Below are positions 10,131-18,292 of a DNA stretch of 64,000 bases, piece by piece (the stretch's first letter is position 1; each line of letters begins with the position of its first letter). Below the pieces are notes generated by a model that was not told the DNA's origin, ran no database searches, and saw nothing but the letters and a program-made list of their open reading frames with translations. Source of the stretch: Wenyingzhuangia heitensis (GTDB taxonomy: Bacteria; Bacteroidota; Bacteroidia; Flavobacteriales; Flavobacteriaceae); the NCBI RefSeq assembly GCF_011762155.1, contig NZ_JAASQL010000001.1:1178001-1242000 (forward strand), in the 5' to 3' direction. Made by a program: the position numbers and the translations under genes.

Positions 10131-10850
10131 TTATAATTTATATTTATTGTTTTCAATATTTGTTTGTTGCTCTATAATTTGTTTGATAGATTTATAAATC
10201 ACTTTTTTTAAATCTTCATTTATTTTGTTCTGAAATGAAAATTTTTGGTTGATTTCTATTTCTATTCCTACATAGTTTTTAGAAAATTGTTTTCTTAAAG
10301 TTTTAGTAAATCCATCACTAATACCTTTGTACGGATAGTTACAGCGTATATTTAGCTCTGGAGCTCTCTTTTTTAATTCAGCTTTTAATAATTGTGCTAT
10401 TTTTTTTTCGTGTATTGATGAAGGGTCATATAACAAACCAATATCACATTTTCTGGTTACTCCGTTAAAAACAGGAGTAAAACTATGTACGGATATATGA
10501 AAAATACAATGTTTAGAATGTATTAAACTTTCTATTTGCTGAATTACCTTGTCTCTATAAATAAGATAATATTGTTGTATTAAAAGTTGTTTTTCTTTTT
10601 TGTCTAGTTTTTTTGTAAACTCAGAAAACAGCATCGGATGATGTAAAGATCTATTAAGTTCTATAAATAGTCTGCTAATTTCATTGCTTTTATGAAATAC
10701 GGCTAAAGGCCTTAAATACTTAAAAAGATCTAAGGCACCCTTGTCATAAGCTCTATGAGTTTGTAAAACTAATTCTTGACTTAGAAAAAGAGAATCATAG
10801 GCTAATGGAATTTTATTTCCACCGTGTTCGCAAGTTAAAAGTAGTTTCAT
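10131..10850 (-). CDS. N-formylglutamate amidohydrolase-like enzyme
   Basis: The 239-residue protein belongs to the N-formylglutamate amidohydrolase family (zinc-dependent, phosphorylase/hydrolase-like fold). Family blocks are the N-terminal TCEHGGNKIP, SVHSFTP with CDIGLLYD, and GIEIEINQ. Classical members (HutG type) remove formate from N-formylglutamate in histidine breakdown, but no hut genes lie here. Instead it ends a tight operon: 3 bases after the GCS2-type ligase, itself 1 base after the RimK-like ligase. That conserved neighbourhood suggests it hydrolyses an amide in the product of the two ligases, or supplies a substrate. The exact substrate cannot be read from the sequence. Confidence 0.88.
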   Translation of the reverse strand: MKLLLTCEHGGNKIPLAYDSLFLSQELVLQTHRAYDKGALDLFKYLRPLAVFHKSNEISRLFIELNRSLHHPMLFSEFTKKLDKKEKQLLIQQYYLIYRDKVIQQIESLIHSKHCIFHISVHSFTPVFNGVTRKCDIGLLYDPSSIHEKKIAQLLKAELKKRAPELNIRCNYPYKGISDGFTKTLRKQFSKNYVGIEIEINQKFSFQNKINEDLKKVIYKSIKQIIEQQTNIENNKYKL

Positions 10851-10853
10851 GTT

Positions 10854-12080
10854 TTAGGTATCAAATAAAACGTTTTGTTGTAAACAGTCTGCTAATTTTG
10901 TGTAAACTTTTTGAATATTTTTTTCAGAAAGGTCTGACTTTAACGAATTTTCTATACGTGTAGCTAAGGTTCCTTTTTCTAAAATTATTTCAATAGCAGA
11001 TTGGTAGTTTTTAGGAATTTGATTGGCTACTGTTTTGTATAAATATTTCCATACATTTTTAACCGTTTCTGTTTTTGTGATTCCTAATTCTTTTAAATAA
11101 TCTGTATTAGTAATAATTGAATTTTCTCCTTGTTTTATACAAGTGTTTAAAATTGAAGCTAATTCTTTTTCGTGCCATTTTTTTTGAGAAGTTAAAGAGG
11201 TATAAGGTGTTGTTACCAATACTTTTAAAACCTGAGTCACCAATATGGCAATGGCAATATCTGCTTTAGGACATTCTTGAATATCAATAACTCTAATCTC
11301 AATTGCATTTCTATCAAAGCGAGCAATGGCACCTCTAGAGTTTACAAAATAATGATCTAATATTTTTTCTTTATCAAAAGGCTCTATGGCTTTTTTGATG
11401 GGGTCAAAAATAGAAACTTCATACTCATTTCTACTAAAAGCTTGTTCTGGAATTACGCTACCTGCAATAATTGGGATTTCTTTTTGATTGTATTTATAGC
11501 TTTCTAATCTACTGTCTTTAAAACCGGTAAAATTACCGTCTAATACAGGAGAGCTGGCACACAAACCGGGTAAAATAGGTAGTAAAATACGAATAGCTGC
11601 ATGTAGTTTTTCAAACTCAGCATCGTTATAAAAAGGCAGGTTAATGTGCATGCTTTGTAAGTTGCTCCATCCGTGACCTTTGCAGTTAAAAATGGTGTTA
11701 TACAACTCATAAATTTCGTTAGAGCCGTGTTCCCAAAGTTTTGTTTCCGTAAAAGGATCCATTAGCGGGTGACAAGCAGTTCCTAATAATTTACTGTCTG
11801 TTTCTGTTAATAAGTGGTTAATCTCAATAATGTTTTTATGAAAATCAATATCTAATCCTGTTAAATCTGCAACAGGATTTTGAGTTTTAATTTCTACAAC
11901 ATGCGCTACCAATTCGTTACTCCAACCAATGGTTCCGTTGTTAATATCATCAACCAAAGTTCCATTTTTTGCCGTTAATAAATCGGCTACTTTTGGGGCT
12001 ACTTTAAAGGTAGAATTGTTAATTAACATGTATTCAAGTTCAATTCCGTAAACTTCAAATAATTTATATTTTGTTTTCAT
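10854..12080 (-). CDS. GCS2-type carboxylate-amine ligase (glutamate-cysteine ligase-like)
   Basis: The 408-residue protein shows the glutamine-synthetase-like fold of the GCS2 family: YGIELEYML near the N-terminus (metal/ATP glutamates), EIKTQNP, MHINLPF, and AIARFDRNAIEIRVID. Such enzymes join glutamate or a similar acid to an amine through an acyl-phosphate. The nearest known role is gamma-glutamylcysteine synthesis, but members in this genomic setting are of unknown specificity. Neighbours are a RimK-like ATP-grasp ligase 1 base upstream and an N-formylglutamate amidohydrolase-like gene 3 bases downstream. The window has no glutathione synthetase, so I do not call it gshA. Confidence 0.88.
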   Translation of the reverse strand: MKTKYKLFEVYGIELEYMLINNSTFKVAPKVADLLTAKNGTLVDDINNGTIGWSNELVAHVVEIKTQNPVADLTGLDIDFHKNIIEINHLLTETDSKLLGTACHPLMDPFTETKLWEHGSNEIYELYNTIFNCKGHGWSNLQSMHINLPFYNDAEFEKLHAAIRILLPILPGLCASSPVLDGNFTGFKDSRLESYKYNQKEIPIIAGSVIPEQAFSRNEYEVSIFDPIKKAIEPFDKEKILDHYFVNSRGAIARFDRNAIEIRVIDIQECPKADIAIAILVTQVLKVLVTTPYTSLTSQKKWHEKELASILNTCIKQGENSIITNTDYLKELGITKTETVKNVWKYLYKTVANQIPKNYQSAIEIILEKGTLATRIENSLKSDLSEKNIQKVYTKLADCLQQNVLFDT

Positions 12081-12081
12081 C

Positions 12082-13530
12082 TTATGATAAAACTCTAGTT
12101 TTAAAAGCTTCTAATATGGTTGTGTAAATTAAATCTCCGTAATATTCATCTTCTACACCTACATCAATGTTTGGATTGTCATTAATTTCAATCACCATAG
12201 GTTGATTGTTTACTATTTTTATATCGATACCATATAAGCCTAAGCCCATAATTTTGGCAGATTTTAAAGCTATGTTTACTACTTTTTTAGGAACTTTTTC
12301 TATAGGGAAACAATCAGAATCTCCATCTTGTTCTTTCTTTTTTTTAGCATTCCAGTTGTAAATTTGCCAATGGTCTTTAGCCATAAAATACCTGCAAGCA
12401 TAAAATACTTTTCCGTCTAGTACACCAATTCTCCAATCGTAGCTAGAGGGACAAAATTCTTGTGCTATAATCAAATCAGATTCTTGTAACATTAATTGGG
12501 TAAGCTCTTTGTATTCTTGTTCTGTTTTGGCTTTTTTTACACCAAAAGAAAATGTCGAATCGGGAGTTTTTAACACACAAGGCAAACCAATTTCTTGCAA
12601 CACTTCTTCTTGATTGTTAACGTGAATAATACGGGTTTTAGGAGTGTTGATGTTTGCATTTTGCAAAGCTTCTGCCATATACACTTTGTTGCAACATTTT
12701 AAAATTGCATCTGGATAGTCTATAATAGCAATATCTTGCTGTTGTGCTTTGCGGGCAAAGGTATAGGCCTCATTATTCACCTCGGTACTTTGTCTAATAA
12801 ATAAAGCATCAAAAGAGCTTAGTCTAGACAGGTCTTTAGGTTCAATAATTTCGGTATAAATTTTTAGCTTCTCAGCAATTTCCATAAACTTTTTTAAAGC
12901 TTTAGAATTGCTAGGGGGTGCAGGGTCGTTTTTGTTAACTAAAATAGCCAAATCAAAATCGTGTTTAACTTGTTTGGGTTGGTCGTATCTTTTTTTAGAG
13001 AAATATTGACTAGCAAATTCTTGAGCTAACTCTATGTGAGCTGCTGGAATTTCTGCTTCTGTAATAGCTTTGATGTTATGCACATGCCATTTGTAATCAA
13101 AATTAAAAGTGATTCTTAAAAACGGAATCTGAAAATGTTTGTAAAACAAGGCACTAAGTTCTTTGTATTTTTGAGCTACGTTTTGTCCAAAATAAATACT
13201 GAGTGTAAAGTTTTGAGATTTGATGGATTTTAAACTTTGTTGGATAATTTCATCAAACTCATCGGATACTATTTTAACCAATTCTAACTTATCTAAATCT
13301 ACCAAATTTTTAACGGTTGGAGATACACGATGTCCTCTGGCTTCTGCCAATAGAGATACGTAATATCCTTTAGATTGGTAACTGTAATCTTTACATAAAT
13401 TAAAGATTCTTCCTTTTTTTAATAAAGAATAAGTTGGGTTGGTAAGGTAATCTTGCGAAGAAATAACTGTAATGTCATCAGCTAAAAAAAGCCATTTTTC
13501 AGGTTGATTTACAACTAAATACTTGTTCAT
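12082..13530 (-). CDS. RimK-family ATP-grasp ligase with N-terminal RLAN domain
   Basis: The 482-residue protein has a RimK-type ATP-grasp domain in its second half (about 280-480). Visible parts are the CVLKTPDSTFSFGVKKA glycine/serine loop, AQEFCPSSYDWRIGVLDGK, GLGLYGIDIK and the metal-binding end EINDNPNID. The first ~200 residues fit the RLAN extension found on this subfamily. Classical RimK adds glutamates to ribosomal protein S6 and is about 300 residues; this form is longer and always belongs to a cassette. It is the first gene of an operon with the GCS2-type ligase and the amidohydrolase-like gene. It probably forms a peptide or isopeptide bond in a small metabolite or on a protein tail; the substrate is unknown. 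Confidence 0.9.
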   Translation of the reverse strand: MNKYLVVNQPEKWLFLADDITVISSQDYLTNPTYSLLKKGRIFNLCKDYSYQSKGYYVSLLAEARGHRVSPTVKNLVDLDKLELVKIVSDEFDEIIQQSLKSIKSQNFTLSIYFGQNVAQKYKELSALFYKHFQIPFLRITFNFDYKWHVHNIKAITEAEIPAAHIELAQEFASQYFSKKRYDQPKQVKHDFDLAILVNKNDPAPPSNSKALKKFMEIAEKLKIYTEIIEPKDLSRLSSFDALFIRQSTEVNNEAYTFARKAQQQDIAIIDYPDAILKCCNKVYMAEALQNANINTPKTRIIHVNNQEEVLQEIGLPCVLKTPDSTFSFGVKKAKTEQEYKELTQLMLQESDLIIAQEFCPSSYDWRIGVLDGKVFYACRYFMAKDHWQIYNWNAKKKKEQDGDSDCFPIEKVPKKVVNIALKSAKIMGLGLYGIDIKIVNNQPMVIEINDNPNIDVGVEDEYYGDLIYTTILEAFKTRVLS

Positions 13531-13630
13531 TTAAAGGTTTTCATTTGTGTTAAATTTTGGATTAAATGTATATGAAAAATAAATACAAAAATGAAAAATA
13601 ATATTTTTTTTTAGCCTTTAAAAATAATGG

Positions 13631-14830
13631 TTAAGAAGTAATTGTCTGTTTTTTATTTTGAAAGGTTAGTTTAACTGTTGCTCCTTTTGTTTTGTTGTTT
13701 ATTACGGTAATGTCTGCATTGTGTACATCAATAATTAGTTTAACCAAAGCCAAACCAAGTCCTTTGTTATTGTCTACATGCTCTTTTCCCGATGCAAAAA
13801 GTTTGTATAAATTGGCAAGTGCATAATCGCTAAAACCATCACCTTCATCAATTATAGAACAAATAATTTTATCCTCTGTGTTTTCAATGTTAATGGTAAT
13901 GTTTGTGTTTTCGTGCGAGTGTTTTATTGCATTTTCTAAAATATTGTCTAAACAATATAAAATAAGTTGAGGGTCTCCGTGAATATAAGTGTCTGGTTGA
14001 TTTTCGTTAATAAAAAGTTGTTGATTTTTAGCTCTTAACATTTTATCGACTTTAATTTTTAAAATTCCTAAAATTTCTTTTAGTGGAATATTTACTCCTT
14101 TTAAAAACTGGTTGCTTGTTCTTAATTCTGTAATTCTTAAACTTAGTTTAGAAAAAGACAGTAATCTGTTGGCAGAAACATCTAACAAGTTAACAAATTC
14201 AATTAATTCTGATGATTTTAGTTTGTCTTTTAAAACATTAATAAATCCCATAATTCCGTTTAATGGGGTGTTTATTTCATGACTAATAATGGTTAAAAAC
14301 TCATTTTTGGCAATGTCTAAAGTTTCTAGTTCTTTATTTGCTTGTTGTAATTTTTGATTGGCATCTTTTACTTCTAAAGTTCTGCTTTTAATTTCATCTT
14401 CTAGCCAAGTGTTCACATTTTTTAATTGATCTTGACTTTGTTTTAGTTCCAAATGTGTTTTAACTCTTTGTAGTAGCTCTCTAGCGTTAAAAGGTTTGGT
14501 TACATAATCTTGTCCGCCTACTTCAAAACCTTTTATAATTTGGTTTTCTTCTGTCATGGCTGTTAAAAAAATGACGGGTATTTTTTTTAGGTGCTCTATT
14601 TTTCTAATTTCTAAGCAAGCCTCAAATCCATCCATTACAGGCATGTTTACATCTAAAAGAATCAAATCAAAATCTTTTGTTTTTTTTAGAGTGTCTACAG
14701 CTTTTTGGCCATCTGTAGCTACTCCAATAATATAATTTTGATCTTTTAACAAGCTACCTAGCACTTGTATGTTTTTTTGTTGATCGTCAACAATTAATAT
14801 TTTGGGGGTTTTGGGTTTGCAAATAAACAT
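13631..14830 (-). CDS. Response-regulator receiver fused to histidine kinase (REC-HisKA-HATPase)
   Basis: The 399-residue cytosolic protein has a receiver domain first (residues ~8-125: acidic pocket D15/D16, phosphoacceptor D60 in LILLDVNMPVMDG, K112), a coiled coil (~130-175), a dimerisation/phosphoacceptor helix (H184 in ISHEINTPLNG) and an ATP-binding domain (~270-390, GDGFSDYAL and GLGLALVKL). It has no sensor or membrane segment, so its input is probably phosphorylation of its own receiver by another kinase. The obvious source is the large hybrid kinase 36 bases upstream on the same strand. Output partner not visible. Confidence 0.92.
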   Translation of the reverse strand: MFICKPKTPKILIVDDQQKNIQVLGSLLKDQNYIIGVATDGQKAVDTLKKTKDFDLILLDVNMPVMDGFEACLEIRKIEHLKKIPVIFLTAMTEENQIIKGFEVGGQDYVTKPFNARELLQRVKTHLELKQSQDQLKNVNTWLEDEIKSRTLEVKDANQKLQQANKELETLDIAKNEFLTIISHEINTPLNGIMGFINVLKDKLKSSELIEFVNLLDVSANRLLSFSKLSLRITELRTSNQFLKGVNIPLKEILGILKIKVDKMLRAKNQQLFINENQPDTYIHGDPQLILYCLDNILENAIKHSHENTNITINIENTEDKIICSIIDEGDGFSDYALANLYKLFASGKEHVDNNKGLGLALVKLIIDVHNADITVINNKTKGATVKLTFQNKKQTITS

Positions 14831-14866
14831 AGCTTGTCGTAAAAGGGGGTATTAAATTTTTAGTAC

Positions 14867-17800
14867 TTAGTCTATATAAGATTTCAGTTTTTTTATTTTA
14901 TTGGGTAGTTGTTTTAACGTAAAAATTAAATCATCAAATTCAAAATTTTCTGCGTGTAGACAAATCGTTTTAGAAAAATCTATCATCAGTTTATTATTGT
15001 GTTTTTTAGATGTATCAAGAAGCTCTTTTCCAAAATCTTCCATCTCATTTATAATATTGTTCTCTAATAGAGGTGCTAATTGGGGTAAAAGGTTAGACTC
15101 TAATTTTTGTATAAAAATAGGAAGTACTTCTATTTCTTTTTGATTTATTGGATAATCATCCGTTTTGGTGGGTTGAATTACACTTGTGTCTATATATGTT
15201 AAATATTTTTTAGTTTTTGTAAAAAAGAGTTGAATATCTAAAGGCTTTATAATATACTCATCAAAACATTGTTTTAGTTTTTCTTTTTCCAGATCACTTT
15301 TGATAGATGCAGTAATGGCAAATATGGGAATGTTTTTAGTTTTTTTGTTTTGTTTAATAGCCATAGCAGCATCATATCCATTTAAAACAGGCATACGCAA
15401 ATCCATAAAAATAATGTCAGGAATTATTTCTGTAGCAATATCAATAGCTTGTTGTCCGTTTTTAGCTTGATAAAGTTCTAGGTTTGGGGAGTTGTAAAAT
15501 AAATCTAAAATTAAATCTCTATTTTCTTTTACATCATCAACAACTAAAAGTTTTGCGTTGCTAAATAATAAATTTGAACTATCAAAAACGGTTTCTGTTT
15601 CTTCAATATCATCATAAGAAACTTCTATATTGGGTAGTTTAACGGTAAAAGAAGTTCCTTTGTTTAAACTACTTTCTAAGCTAATAACCCCATTCATAGC
15701 TTTGATTAGTTTTGTGGTAATGGATAGTCCTAATCCTGTACCTCCATATTTAATAATGTTCTGACCTCTTTTTTGAATAAAAGGTTGGAATATTAATTTT
15801 TGTTCATTTTCAGGAATTCCAATTCCGGTGTCCTTAACGGTAATATTTAAGGTGATTTGATTTTTGTTTAATGGTTCTTCTGTAGCTGTAATAAATAGTT
15901 GAACCCCTCCTTTTTCTGTGAATTTTATAGCGTTGCTTAATAGATTAAATAGAACTTGCCTTATTCTTACTTTGTCTAAAATTAGTATTGGTGGGAGTTG
16001 TGGACTTGTGATTACGTCAAAGTAGATGTTTTTTTTCTCTATTTTTTGAGAAAAGATATCTTTTATTTGTTGACTAATTTTTCTAAGATTTACAGGGGTT
16101 GAGTTAAACTCTATTTTACCAGCTTCAATTTTAGATAGGTCAAGAATGTCATTAATAATTCTTAATAAGTTTTTACTACTTGAGTGTATCGTTTTTATTT
16201 GAGATAATTGTCTGTTGTCTTTTATAGTCGAAGAAAGTTGTTCTGAAAACCCAATAATAGCATTCATAGGGGTTCTAATTTCATGACTCATATTGGCTAA
16301 AAATTCACTTTTAGCTTTGTTGGCATCTTCGGCAGCATTTTTAGCATTTGTAATTTCTTCTTCAGCTTTTTTTAGTAAAGAAATATCTTGAATAGTTCCT
16401 ATTAGTTTTTTGGGAGTATTCTCATCGGTAAAGCTTTCTATTTTTCCTTTAAGATGAAACCATAAGTATTTATTTTGATGTGTGATTATTCTGCAATTAA
16501 AACTGAATTTTCCTTTTTTATTTGTAAACAGAATGTTTAAATGTTCTCTTACTTTTTTAATATCATCAGAATGTACCTTGCTTAATAACCATTTAAAAGT
16601 ATTTTCTTTTTCGTTAGTTTTATATCCTAATTTTTTATAGAGTAAAGAACTTGCTTTTAGTTTGTCTGTTTTATAATTCCATTCCCACCAAGCATACCCT
16701 CCTGTTAAAAATGCATTTTCTAATCGGTTTTTGCTTTTTTTAAGCTTTTCTCTGTTTTTAGAAATAGCTAGGTTTGCATTTTTAAGCTCTTTAGTTCTTG
16801 CTATTACACGCTGTTCTAGGTCATTATTAAGTGTGATAATTTCTTTTTCTTTTTCTTTTAGATCTGTAATATCTGTTCCAATAAAAATTACTTTTTCAGT
16901 TTTATTGTCTTTTCCAGACAGAATTGGTTTTATGTGAATTGTTTGCCAATTTTCTTTATTAGGAATATAAGAATTGACAACTTCTACCGTTAACTGAGTT
17001 TTGTTTTTAATAGCATTTTCTATTTTAGCAATGGGGTTAAGGGGGTTGTTTTTATCTATAATAGAATCTTTATAATTTTTACCCGTTATTTGAGTTAATG
17101 GTTTTTGTAATAGTTGTTCAAAAGCAGGATTAATCCATTCTATTTTACCATTAAGGTCTGTGATTAACATACAATTGTTACTGTTTTTAACTACAGAAGC
17201 TAGTTTTTTTATTTCTTTCTGTCCTAGCTGTTCTTTTAGTTGTAAATAAGAAAACAACCAGGAACAGCATAAAATAAGTATAAAAAGAACAAAAACAGGA
17301 ATGTAAAAGAGCGATAAAACATCAGTTTTTAAAGCTGTTATTTGTTGATTAGAAATAAAGCTTACAACTTTCCAATAATCATCACTAGCAAAATATTTAG
17401 TACGTTCTCCTTTGCTTATAATTTTATTAAAATTTAATGTAGAAAAAGTAGTAATCCCTTCTTTAGAAATACTTTGTCCTTGCTCTTTGTTGTTTATAAT
17501 TGCCCAAGAATTTGGGTGTTTATTAGAAAATGTTTTATCTAACATATCCGGAAACATAAAGCCCCAATTGTCTTTTTTGTTTGGAGACATTAGAAAAAAT
17601 CCATTTTTGTCTAATAAATAAAACTCCCCTTTATGGGCTTTGTTTAGTTTGGTTATTCGTTTTTCTAAAGGAGTTCCTAGATAGGATGCAATTAAAATTC
17701 CAGAATATTTATTATCACAACCATATATTTTACTTCCTACACGTAAAACTTGTTTGATAGGTTTTTCTATAAGTCCGTTCTCTATGTTTAAATCAAACCT

Positions 17801-18292
17801 AGAAAAATAAATGTCTTCATTTTTTAATTCAGAAATTTCTTTAAAATAATACCTGTCAGATTTATCTTGTAATAAAGAGTCTGGTTTAAATTTAGGAAAT
17901 CCTTTTTTGTAATCACACCTTAAAACTTCATTACCGTTAATATCTAATAATCTAATTTGGTCATATATTTTTTTTCTTTTGATAAATTGATAGATTTCCG
18001 TTTTTAAATTTTCGATTGATTTTTTATTATTACAGGAAGCAAAATTACTAGTAGATATTAAATCACTAAGCAATAAAACATCTCTTTGCACAAAAACAAA
18101 ATCATTTTTAATTTCGTTTACCTGTAGTAAAAGTTTTCCTTCTTCTTTGTTTTTTAATTGATCCATTTCAATAGATACTTTATTGGTGTAAAAGAAGTAA
18201 GAAATAGCAAATAAAATAATTGTAAACAAAAAAGATAATTTGATAAATTTTGAAAACAACAAAGTAGTTTTTAGTTTTCTAGGGGTATTCAT
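14867..18292 (-). CDS. Membrane hybrid histidine kinase with two PAS domains and a receiver
   Basis: This 1141-residue kinase has an N-terminal transmembrane helix (~13-31), a ~300-residue periplasmic sensor that looks like a Cache-type domain (SRFDLNIENGLIEKPIKQVLRVGSKIYG, FYLLDKNGFFLMSP), a second helix (~327-348), PAS (~365-480), a coiled coil, a second PAS with PAC (~525-645), HisKA (MSHEIRTPMNAIIGFSEQL), HATPase (NLLSNAIKFT, GTGLGLSIT) and a receiver (DIIFMDLRMPVLNGYDA). The last ~90 residues are helical and resemble a degenerate HPt domain without a clear phosphohistidine motif. It is the first gene of a pair with the REC-kinase downstream, so a phosphorelay between them is likely. No DNA-binding regulator is adjacent. 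Confidence 0.93.
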   Translation of the reverse strand: MNTPRKLKTTLLFSKFIKLSFLFTIILFAISYFFYTNKVSIEMDQLKNKEEGKLLLQVNEIKNDFVFVQRDVLLLSDLISTSNFASCNNKKSIENLKTEIYQFIKRKKIYDQIRLLDINGNEVLRCDYKKGFPKFKPDSLLQDKSDRYYFKEISELKNEDIYFSRFDLNIENGLIEKPIKQVLRVGSKIYGCDNKYSGILIASYLGTPLEKRITKLNKAHKGEFYLLDKNGFFLMSPNKKDNWGFMFPDMLDKTFSNKHPNSWAIINNKEQGQSISKEGITTFSTLNFNKIISKGERTKYFASDDYWKVVSFISNQQITALKTDVLSLFYIPVFVLFILILCCSWLFSYLQLKEQLGQKEIKKLASVVKNSNNCMLITDLNGKIEWINPAFEQLLQKPLTQITGKNYKDSIIDKNNPLNPIAKIENAIKNKTQLTVEVVNSYIPNKENWQTIHIKPILSGKDNKTEKVIFIGTDITDLKEKEKEIITLNNDLEQRVIARTKELKNANLAISKNREKLKKSKNRLENAFLTGGYAWWEWNYKTDKLKASSLLYKKLGYKTNEKENTFKWLLSKVHSDDIKKVREHLNILFTNKKGKFSFNCRIITHQNKYLWFHLKGKIESFTDENTPKKLIGTIQDISLLKKAEEEITNAKNAAEDANKAKSEFLANMSHEIRTPMNAIIGFSEQLSSTIKDNRQLSQIKTIHSSSKNLLRIINDILDLSKIEAGKIEFNSTPVNLRKISQQIKDIFSQKIEKKNIYFDVITSPQLPPILILDKVRIRQVLFNLLSNAIKFTEKGGVQLFITATEEPLNKNQITLNITVKDTGIGIPENEQKLIFQPFIQKRGQNIIKYGGTGLGLSITTKLIKAMNGVISLESSLNKGTSFTVKLPNIEVSYDDIEETETVFDSSNLLFSNAKLLVVDDVKENRDLILDLFYNSPNLELYQAKNGQQAIDIATEIIPDIIFMDLRMPVLNGYDAAMAIKQNKKTKNIPIFAITASIKSDLEKEKLKQCFDEYIIKPLDIQLFFTKTKKYLTYIDTSVIQPTKTDDYPINQKEIEVLPIFIQKLESNLLPQLAPLLENNIINEMEDFGKELLDTSKKHNNKLMIDFSKTICLHAENFEFDDLIFTLKQLPNKIKKLKSYID

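Follow-up and report, generated by a model that had tools for sequence, protein, structure and literature searches.

A conserved pair of amide ligases with associated hydrolases in Wenyingzhuangia heitensis and other Bacteroidota, a candidate glutamyl peptide pathway

We examined a three-gene operon in a 64,000 nucleotide stretch of Wenyingzhuangia heitensis DNA (hereafter the window, numbered from its first letter) that encodes two different amide-bond-forming enzymes together with an amide hydrolase. The operon is read from the minus strand. Its first gene (12082-13530, 482 aa) encodes RLAN-RimK, an RLAN domain joined to a RimK/LysX-type ATP-grasp amide ligase, its second (10854-12080, 408 aa) a GCS2-type carboxylate-amine ligase and its third (10131-10850, 239 aa) an amide hydrolase of the N-formylglutamate amidohydrolase family (FGase). 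One base separates RLAN-RimK from GCS2 and three bases separate GCS2 from FGase. All assignments exceeded the Pfam cut-offs: the RLAN domain (residues 26-170, 13021-13455) scored 158.4 bits against PF14401 (cut-off 25), the RimK-like ATP-grasp domain (residues 281-456, 12163-12690) 47.7 against PF08443 (cut-off 21), GCS2 84.7 against PF04107 (cut-off 21) and FGase 69.2 against PF05013 (cut-off 28.9). PF14401, PF04107 and PF05013 each had a single match in the whole genome, all at this operon. A hairpin scan placed a terminator-like hairpin 3' of the operon (10126-10098 on the minus strand) with 12 pairs, 3 of them G-C, and a U-rich tail. It folded at -13.5 kcal/mol, whereas shuffles averaged -3.45 (z -5.1) and 0 of 200 did as well; the region held three hairpin-type sites against 1.8 (standard deviation 1.5) in shuffles, and the operon end was marked by one only. 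The coordinates and gaps are thus as the earlier note on this DNA had given them, as are its two amide-bond-forming enzymes with one amide hydrolase and their own terminator.

Folds and conserved residues were assessed using AlphaFold2 models, profile searches against solved structures and alignments of relatives, with catalytic-type residues of all three enzymes chosen from invariant columns and by analogy. The RLAN-RimK model (predicted local distance difference test, pLDDT, 84.4; predicted template modelling score 0.70) best matched RimK (5zct/5zk6), D-Ala ligases and ArgX/LysX among solved structures, and the matches spanned about 310 alignment columns, which corresponds in size to an ATP-grasp enzyme lacking the RLAN domain. 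When aligned to RimK chains the E-x-N motif was paired, EIND with EVNS/EVNA. K282, K321, R367, D436, E448 and N450 were kept in 113/113 rows and E358 in 98/113, and by analogy these residues would be of the nucleotide- and metal-binding type. The GCS2 model (pLDDT 90.7) best matched YbdK (1tt4/1r8g) and plant glutamate-cysteine ligase (2gwc), and ten polar residues were kept in at least 103 of 103 or 104 readable rows. The FGase profile matched 2odf (E 3.7e-35) and, weakly, 2q7s among solved structures; the FGase itself had no NCBIfam match at E 0.01. The FGase fold would be carboxypeptidase/aspartoacylase-like and would read the carboxylate end of the substrate. H9, D36, N66, R67, H118 and H122 of FGase were kept in 93/93 rows and E197 and E199 in 92/92.

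The operon genes were then scored against textbook families. RLAN-RimK reached 32.3 bits against NCBI RimK (NF007764, cut-off 331) and 20.2 against glutathione synthase (cut-off 272), and GCS2 reached 36.4 against cyanobacterial GshA (TIGR02048, cut-off 249.05) and 46.1 against the YbdK family (TIGR02050, cut-off 176.4). No urocanase was found in the window genome, so its FGase is not linked to the degradation of histidine there. Urocanase was present in 12 of the 16 genomes with an FGase-bearing cassette, those without it being the window genome and three more, and in all seven tested of the eight with an FGase-less cassette. With the RimK, GshA and YbdK cut-offs missed widely and the FGase not hut-linked here, the trio is not an ordinary hutG, gshA and rimK set, as the earlier note had held. 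PADLOC-DB searches with the trio and one of the C39-like peptidases described below returned no anti-phage defence family at E 0.01.

Conservation was measured in 296 genomes drawn evenly from the window's phylum, Bacteroidota. RLAN was detected in 35 of these, in one (G155) at 29 bits only. The profile of the cassette GCS2 matched 24 genomes, all within the 35 RLAN genomes, and in 24/24 RLAN adjoined GCS2. The FGase profile was positive in 18 genomes, in 16 of which it adjoined the cassette GCS2 and in two of which it stood alone. FGase is therefore an accessory (16/24 cassettes), and RLAN-RimK with GCS2 forms the core. A one-genome-per-species collection held at least 569 stretches with GCS2 relatives, from which we took the best 80 as named loci; cassettes are demonstrated for these 80 only, and 79 of them lie in records not labelled as another phylum. 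The ligase pair was present in 80/80 and FGase in 78/80, the two exceptions being L103, whose contig ends after GCS2, and L076, which has none beside it. In a further locus (L125) RLAN is cut by the contig start. The closest named loci were from Wenyingzhuangia aestuarii (82% identity in GCS2, 95% in RLAN-RimK). Spacing was tight, with a RLAN-GCS2 gap of -11 to +9 bases in 69/77 loci and a GCS2-FGase gap of -47 to +6 bases in 73/77, a 4-base overlap in 44 of them. Pairwise distances over 77 loci correlated at 0.88 for RLAN-GCS2, 0.77 for GCS2-FGase and 0.72 for RLAN-FGase. The genes immediately beside the cassettes (156, each 100 aa or longer) fell into 77 families, so the unit is conserved while its surroundings vary. 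The comparison of homologue neighbourhoods for a fixed trio that the earlier note had proposed thus returned an invariant ligase pair and a nearly constant FGase among the named loci. In one cassette of the phylum sample (L033, genome G179) GCS2 matched as two overlapping pieces in different frames and clustering left the RLAN gene apart from the others, through either gene decay or faulty sequencing.

Beyond Bacteroidota the cassette seems to be rare. A second sample of 398 genomes was built around G296, which holds a contig titled as a Gammaproteobacteria metagenome-assembled genome, and covered its phylum (presumed Pseudomonadota); GCS2 was detected only in G296, the chosen centre of the sample, which comes without kinship data and may miss small clades. 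Among 72,556 plasmid records the sole GCS2 match was an annotated trio in Legionella adelaidensis. The description of such trios as widespread therefore appears to hold within Bacteroidota only. Of 37 stretches that matched a viral carriage pattern none encodes a GCS2 relative, and 15 phage records match the ATP-grasp part of RLAN-RimK only.

Directly upstream of RLAN-RimK most cassettes of the phylum sample carried a fourth gene, for a C39-like cysteine peptidase some 235 aa long. Its profile matched 21/296 genomes, all within the 24 cassette genomes, and the three cassette genomes without it were the window genome and two of its family. The three-gene cassette of the earlier description is accordingly a kept unit but, for most sampled cassettes, an incomplete one, with FGase as an accessory member. 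Pfam assigned Peptidase_C39_2 in both of two peptidases tested, and the profile matched the peptidase domains of ComA and PCAT1. Cys15, His174 and Asp192 were invariant in 17/17. Most translations start within about 10-20 residues of the domain, a few being longer, and the peptidase is predicted from sequence to be likely cytosolic. C39 was present in 9 of the 80 named loci, none titled Flavobacteriaceae; three C39-less loci (L076, L083 and L143) were likewise not titled Flavobacteriaceae. Every sampled cassette carried at least one hydrolase, with FGase and C39 together in 13, C39 only in 8, FGase only in 3 and neither in 0. On an RLAN tree of 112 rows (L125, with its cut RLAN, L066 and G179, the genome of L033, were left out) C39 presence needed one change and FGase presence seven. 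FGase occurred in 70 of 71 scorable C39-less rows (window excluded) and in 22 of 29 C39 rows (Fisher p 0.0006, the rows being related). Going by this pattern, the ligases seem to require a hydrolase of some kind, and FGase and C39 may overlap in role; the argument for overlap rests on one event, as C39 changed once on the tree.

The surroundings of the window operon were inspected for further partners. The gap 5' of the operon (13531-13630, minus strand) is the presumed promoter site and holds no C39 gene, unlike most sampled relatives outside the window's family. A Bacteroidota-type promoter consensus was found upstream of relatives in 1/79 loci against 0.54 expected, not above chance. Two histidine kinase genes (13631-18292) lie 5' of the operon, and in a Wenyingzhuangia relative (L069) a protein 3' of the cassette has a start that resembles, by eye, the larger window kinase; a histidine kinase may be linked to the cassette, in Wenyingzhuangia only. 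On the 3' side lie a fusion of an AraC-type regulator with a methylguanine methyltransferase and a 2-oxoglutarate-Fe(II) oxygenase. A neighbour scan of 103 loci showed that the most recurrent neighbours hold a nearly constant position and look like shared synteny. Seventeen Christiangramia, Salegentibacter and Gillisia loci carried a divergent dipeptidase (M19; Pfam in one of them, L091) upstream and 16 loci an OsmC-like gene downstream, 13 common to both, probably again shared synteny. In 8/103 loci (L083, L085, L087, L090, L097, L100, L101 and L129; upstream in five and downstream in three; Pfam in 2/8) a same-strand gene no more than six genes away from the cassette encoded a fusion of GNAT with a carbon-nitrogen hydrolase (nitrilase), about 508 aa. 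The fusion does not occur in the window. Its distribution needs five changes on the RLAN tree, so that it may have become a partner repeatedly.

RLAN was also found in other settings. In 10 of the 11 RLAN genomes without GCS2 the open reading frame was 642-718 aa; the only one of these given to Pfam (L061) was a GNAT-RLAN-RimK fusion, and three other translations (L049, L055 and L064) had starts similar by eye. In the eleventh (L066) a shortened ATP-grasp frame stood beside a GNAT-C39 (DUF3335) fusion, and DUF3335 has been described as often fused to GNAT (PMC10318531). An Azospirillum RLAN gene had a C39-like frame beside it. GNAT domains therefore recur near RLAN in three forms, fused to RLAN, fused to C39 or in the GNAT-nitrilase neighbour. 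A Pseudomonas aeruginosa plasmid record (L150) without the cassette GCS2 encoded a RLAN-type ligase near gamma-glutamyltransferase and glutamate/aspartate transporter genes.

We tentatively read the cassette as a pathway of its own that makes a small glutamyl peptide and also recycles it, a reading that falls a little short of probable. From the enzyme families we infer an order of steps, their substrates, a free metabolite as product and the recycling role. GCS2 would use ATP to activate glutamate at its side-chain carboxylate and would join this to an amine, so that a gamma-glutamyl amide results. RLAN-RimK would then activate a carboxylate of this amide and add an amino acid, most likely glutamate, in the manner of RimK and LysX. 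Glutathione synthesis also employs a glutamate-cysteine ligase first and an ATP-grasp ligase second, and we count the succession of GCS2 and RLAN-RimK in favour of a small peptide for this reason. Also in its favour are the shared inheritance and tight spacing of the genes, the folds of both ligases, the presence of one or both hydrolases in every sampled cassette, the lack of a small frame that recurs across lineages in the flanks searched, and the GNAT domains near RLAN. The FGase-type hydrolase would act on an acyl-glutamate amide, cutting it where the glutamate is; the C39-like peptidase of relatives would cut the product elsewhere. The two hydrolases could in this way set the level or length of the product, trimming or recycling a small peptide.

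Several points weigh against a small peptide pathway. One named locus (L076, Brumimicrobium) had neither FGase nor C39 beside the cassette, among 79 loci with a readable third slot and judged at the locus only. Two genomes (G081 and G151, loci L147 and L148) encoded a cassette-like FGase without either ligase. For a C39-like peptidase, longer peptides or proteins would be a better fit than a di- or tripeptide. Sequence searches with the GCS2 profile reached no solved chain at E 0.01, so that the GCS2 pocket is unreadable by homology. The present results are also compatible with either a free peptide or a protein target. That the cassette serves salt or osmotic physiology is conjecture. A BCCT transporter, an indirect marker, was encoded in 12/24 cassette genomes compared to 26/272 others, and by genus in 6/15 compared to 13/125 (p 0.007; 0.026 when a single weak match is dropped), no more than a hint, as kinship confounds the comparison. 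Many named hosts belong to genera that we take to be marine, saline or alkaline, which is confounded by kinship in the same way.

The main rival is reversible protein tagging, in which RLAN-RimK and GCS2 would add glutamyl residues to a protein end or side chain which FGase, acting at the glutamate end, and C39, cutting within the tag or the protein, would remove. There is precedent in RimK, which extends ribosomal protein S6, and RimB, which is described as cutting the added residues in vitro (PMC12239564). The pairing of the ligases with a hydrolase in 24/24 sampled cassettes fits this scheme, as does the distribution of FGase over C39-less and C39 rows (70/71 and 22/29), as if the roles of the two hydrolases overlapped; this overlap is, however, the single event noted above. 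No fixed neighbour offers itself as a target, given 156 flanking genes in 77 families. S6 itself is an unlikely target in the window genome as its C-terminal tail is basic, ending in lysines, ADKRKSNLKSAK, and not acidic. The tails of 15 cassette-free family members read alongside were like the basic tail of the window genome, and acidic S6 tails were present in cassette genomes of other families of the phylum. The comparison comprised 30 rows (G211 was not used) and included no cassette-negative genomes of other families. S6 can therefore be dismissed as a target only for the window's family and may serve as one elsewhere. On this balance we regard protein tagging as possible but unlikely. 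A bolder version would be a new kind of reversible glutamyl-tagging cycle, in which the two unrelated ligases would mark a molecule or protein with a mixed gamma/alpha-glutamyl tag, FGase (at the glutamate end) and C39 would act as partly interchangeable erasers, and GNAT would cap the tag in some lineages; this we consider speculative and somewhat less likely still.

A glutathione-like thiol, for which GCS2 would make gamma-glutamylcysteine and RLAN-RimK would add the last residue, appears improbable. The GCS2 model does best match YbdK and plant glutamate-cysteine ligase, and the combination with an ATP-grasp ligase is the glutathione arrangement. However, the scores against GshA (36.4/249.05), YbdK (46.1/176.4) and glutathione synthase (20.2/272) were all below cut-off. 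Glutathione synthesis requires neither an FGase nor a C39 peptidase. It is very unlikely that the substrate is a ribosomally made peptide that the ligases would cross-link or extend and from which C39 would remove a leader. The peptidase domains of ComA and PCAT1, which the C39 profile matches, cut leaders. Small open reading frames (ATG start, 15-80 aa) were searched within 300 bases upstream in 79 loci or within 400 bases downstream, and no group exceeded six loci. By eye the groups were shadows of flanking genes (antisense or in another frame) or were clade-local, one example being a membrane protein of 58 aa found in four Psychroflexus. We therefore rejected a ribosomally synthesised precursor beside the operon, as no small frame recurred across lineages; distant precursors were not searched. 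ATP-grasp ligases are reported to make graspetides (PMC8939145), which speaks for such a substrate, and the lack of C39 in the window's family speaks against it. That ordinary hutG, gshA and rimK genes lie together by chance, as the similar names given by automatic annotation (in Legionella adelaidensis, for example) might suggest, can be set aside since the cut-offs were missed widely, the window genome lacks urocanase and the ligases adjoin in 24/24 and 80/80 cases, a conservation in other genomes that rules out chance adjacency.

The cassette resembles several known systems in part. Like RimK/RimB, which writes and cuts the S6 tail in Pseudomonas and serves as the precedent for a ligase encoded with a hydrolase (PMC12239564), it encodes a RimK-type ATP-grasp ligase with an amide-bond cutter. 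It differs in having an RLAN domain, a second and unrelated ligase in GCS2 and FGase or C39 in place of a retropepsin, along with an unsuitable S6 tail in the window genome and a RimK score of 32.3 against a cut-off of 331. With glutathione synthesis (GshA and GshB) and YbdK it shares the pairing of a glutamate-cysteine ligase fold enzyme with an ATP-grasp ligase, but its scores fall far below those family cut-offs, its operon carries amide hydrolases and what it makes is not known to be a thiol. LysX/ArgX have the RimK-family fold and are described as RimK-like ligases that link an amino acid such as glutamate to a terminal glutamate (PMC4490483), on the carrier LysW; no carrier-protein gene was recognised in the cassette operon, which holds only its three genes. 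The Rlo operon of Pseudomonas aeruginosa (the protease RloA, RloB and the ATP-grasp enzyme RloC) likewise combines an ATP-grasp enzyme with a protease and has been linked to osmotic stress (PMC12239564). Its protease is secreted and different, RloB is a membrane protein, and no GCS2 or FGase is described for it.

Among the matches listed in searches of the open-access literature, which leave most subscription papers outside their scope, we found no experimental work on this gene set. Predicted amidoligase neighbourhoods with RLAN, GNAT, papain-like peptidases and GCS2-type ligases were reportedly described by Iyer et al. in 2009. This amidoligase survey is cited in PMC4431377 and PMC10318531. 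It may or may not have described the quartet and its C39-less form, and we cautiously grade the cassette as a variant of a predicted kind.

GCS2 relatives are encoded in at least 569 stretches of the one-genome-per-species collection, and the compact operon makes the question of its product testable with few deletions. A good part of the cassette hosts are presumably marine or salt-loving genera. Two ligases conserved alongside hydrolases of their own speak for a metabolite or tag that is made by many Bacteroidota.

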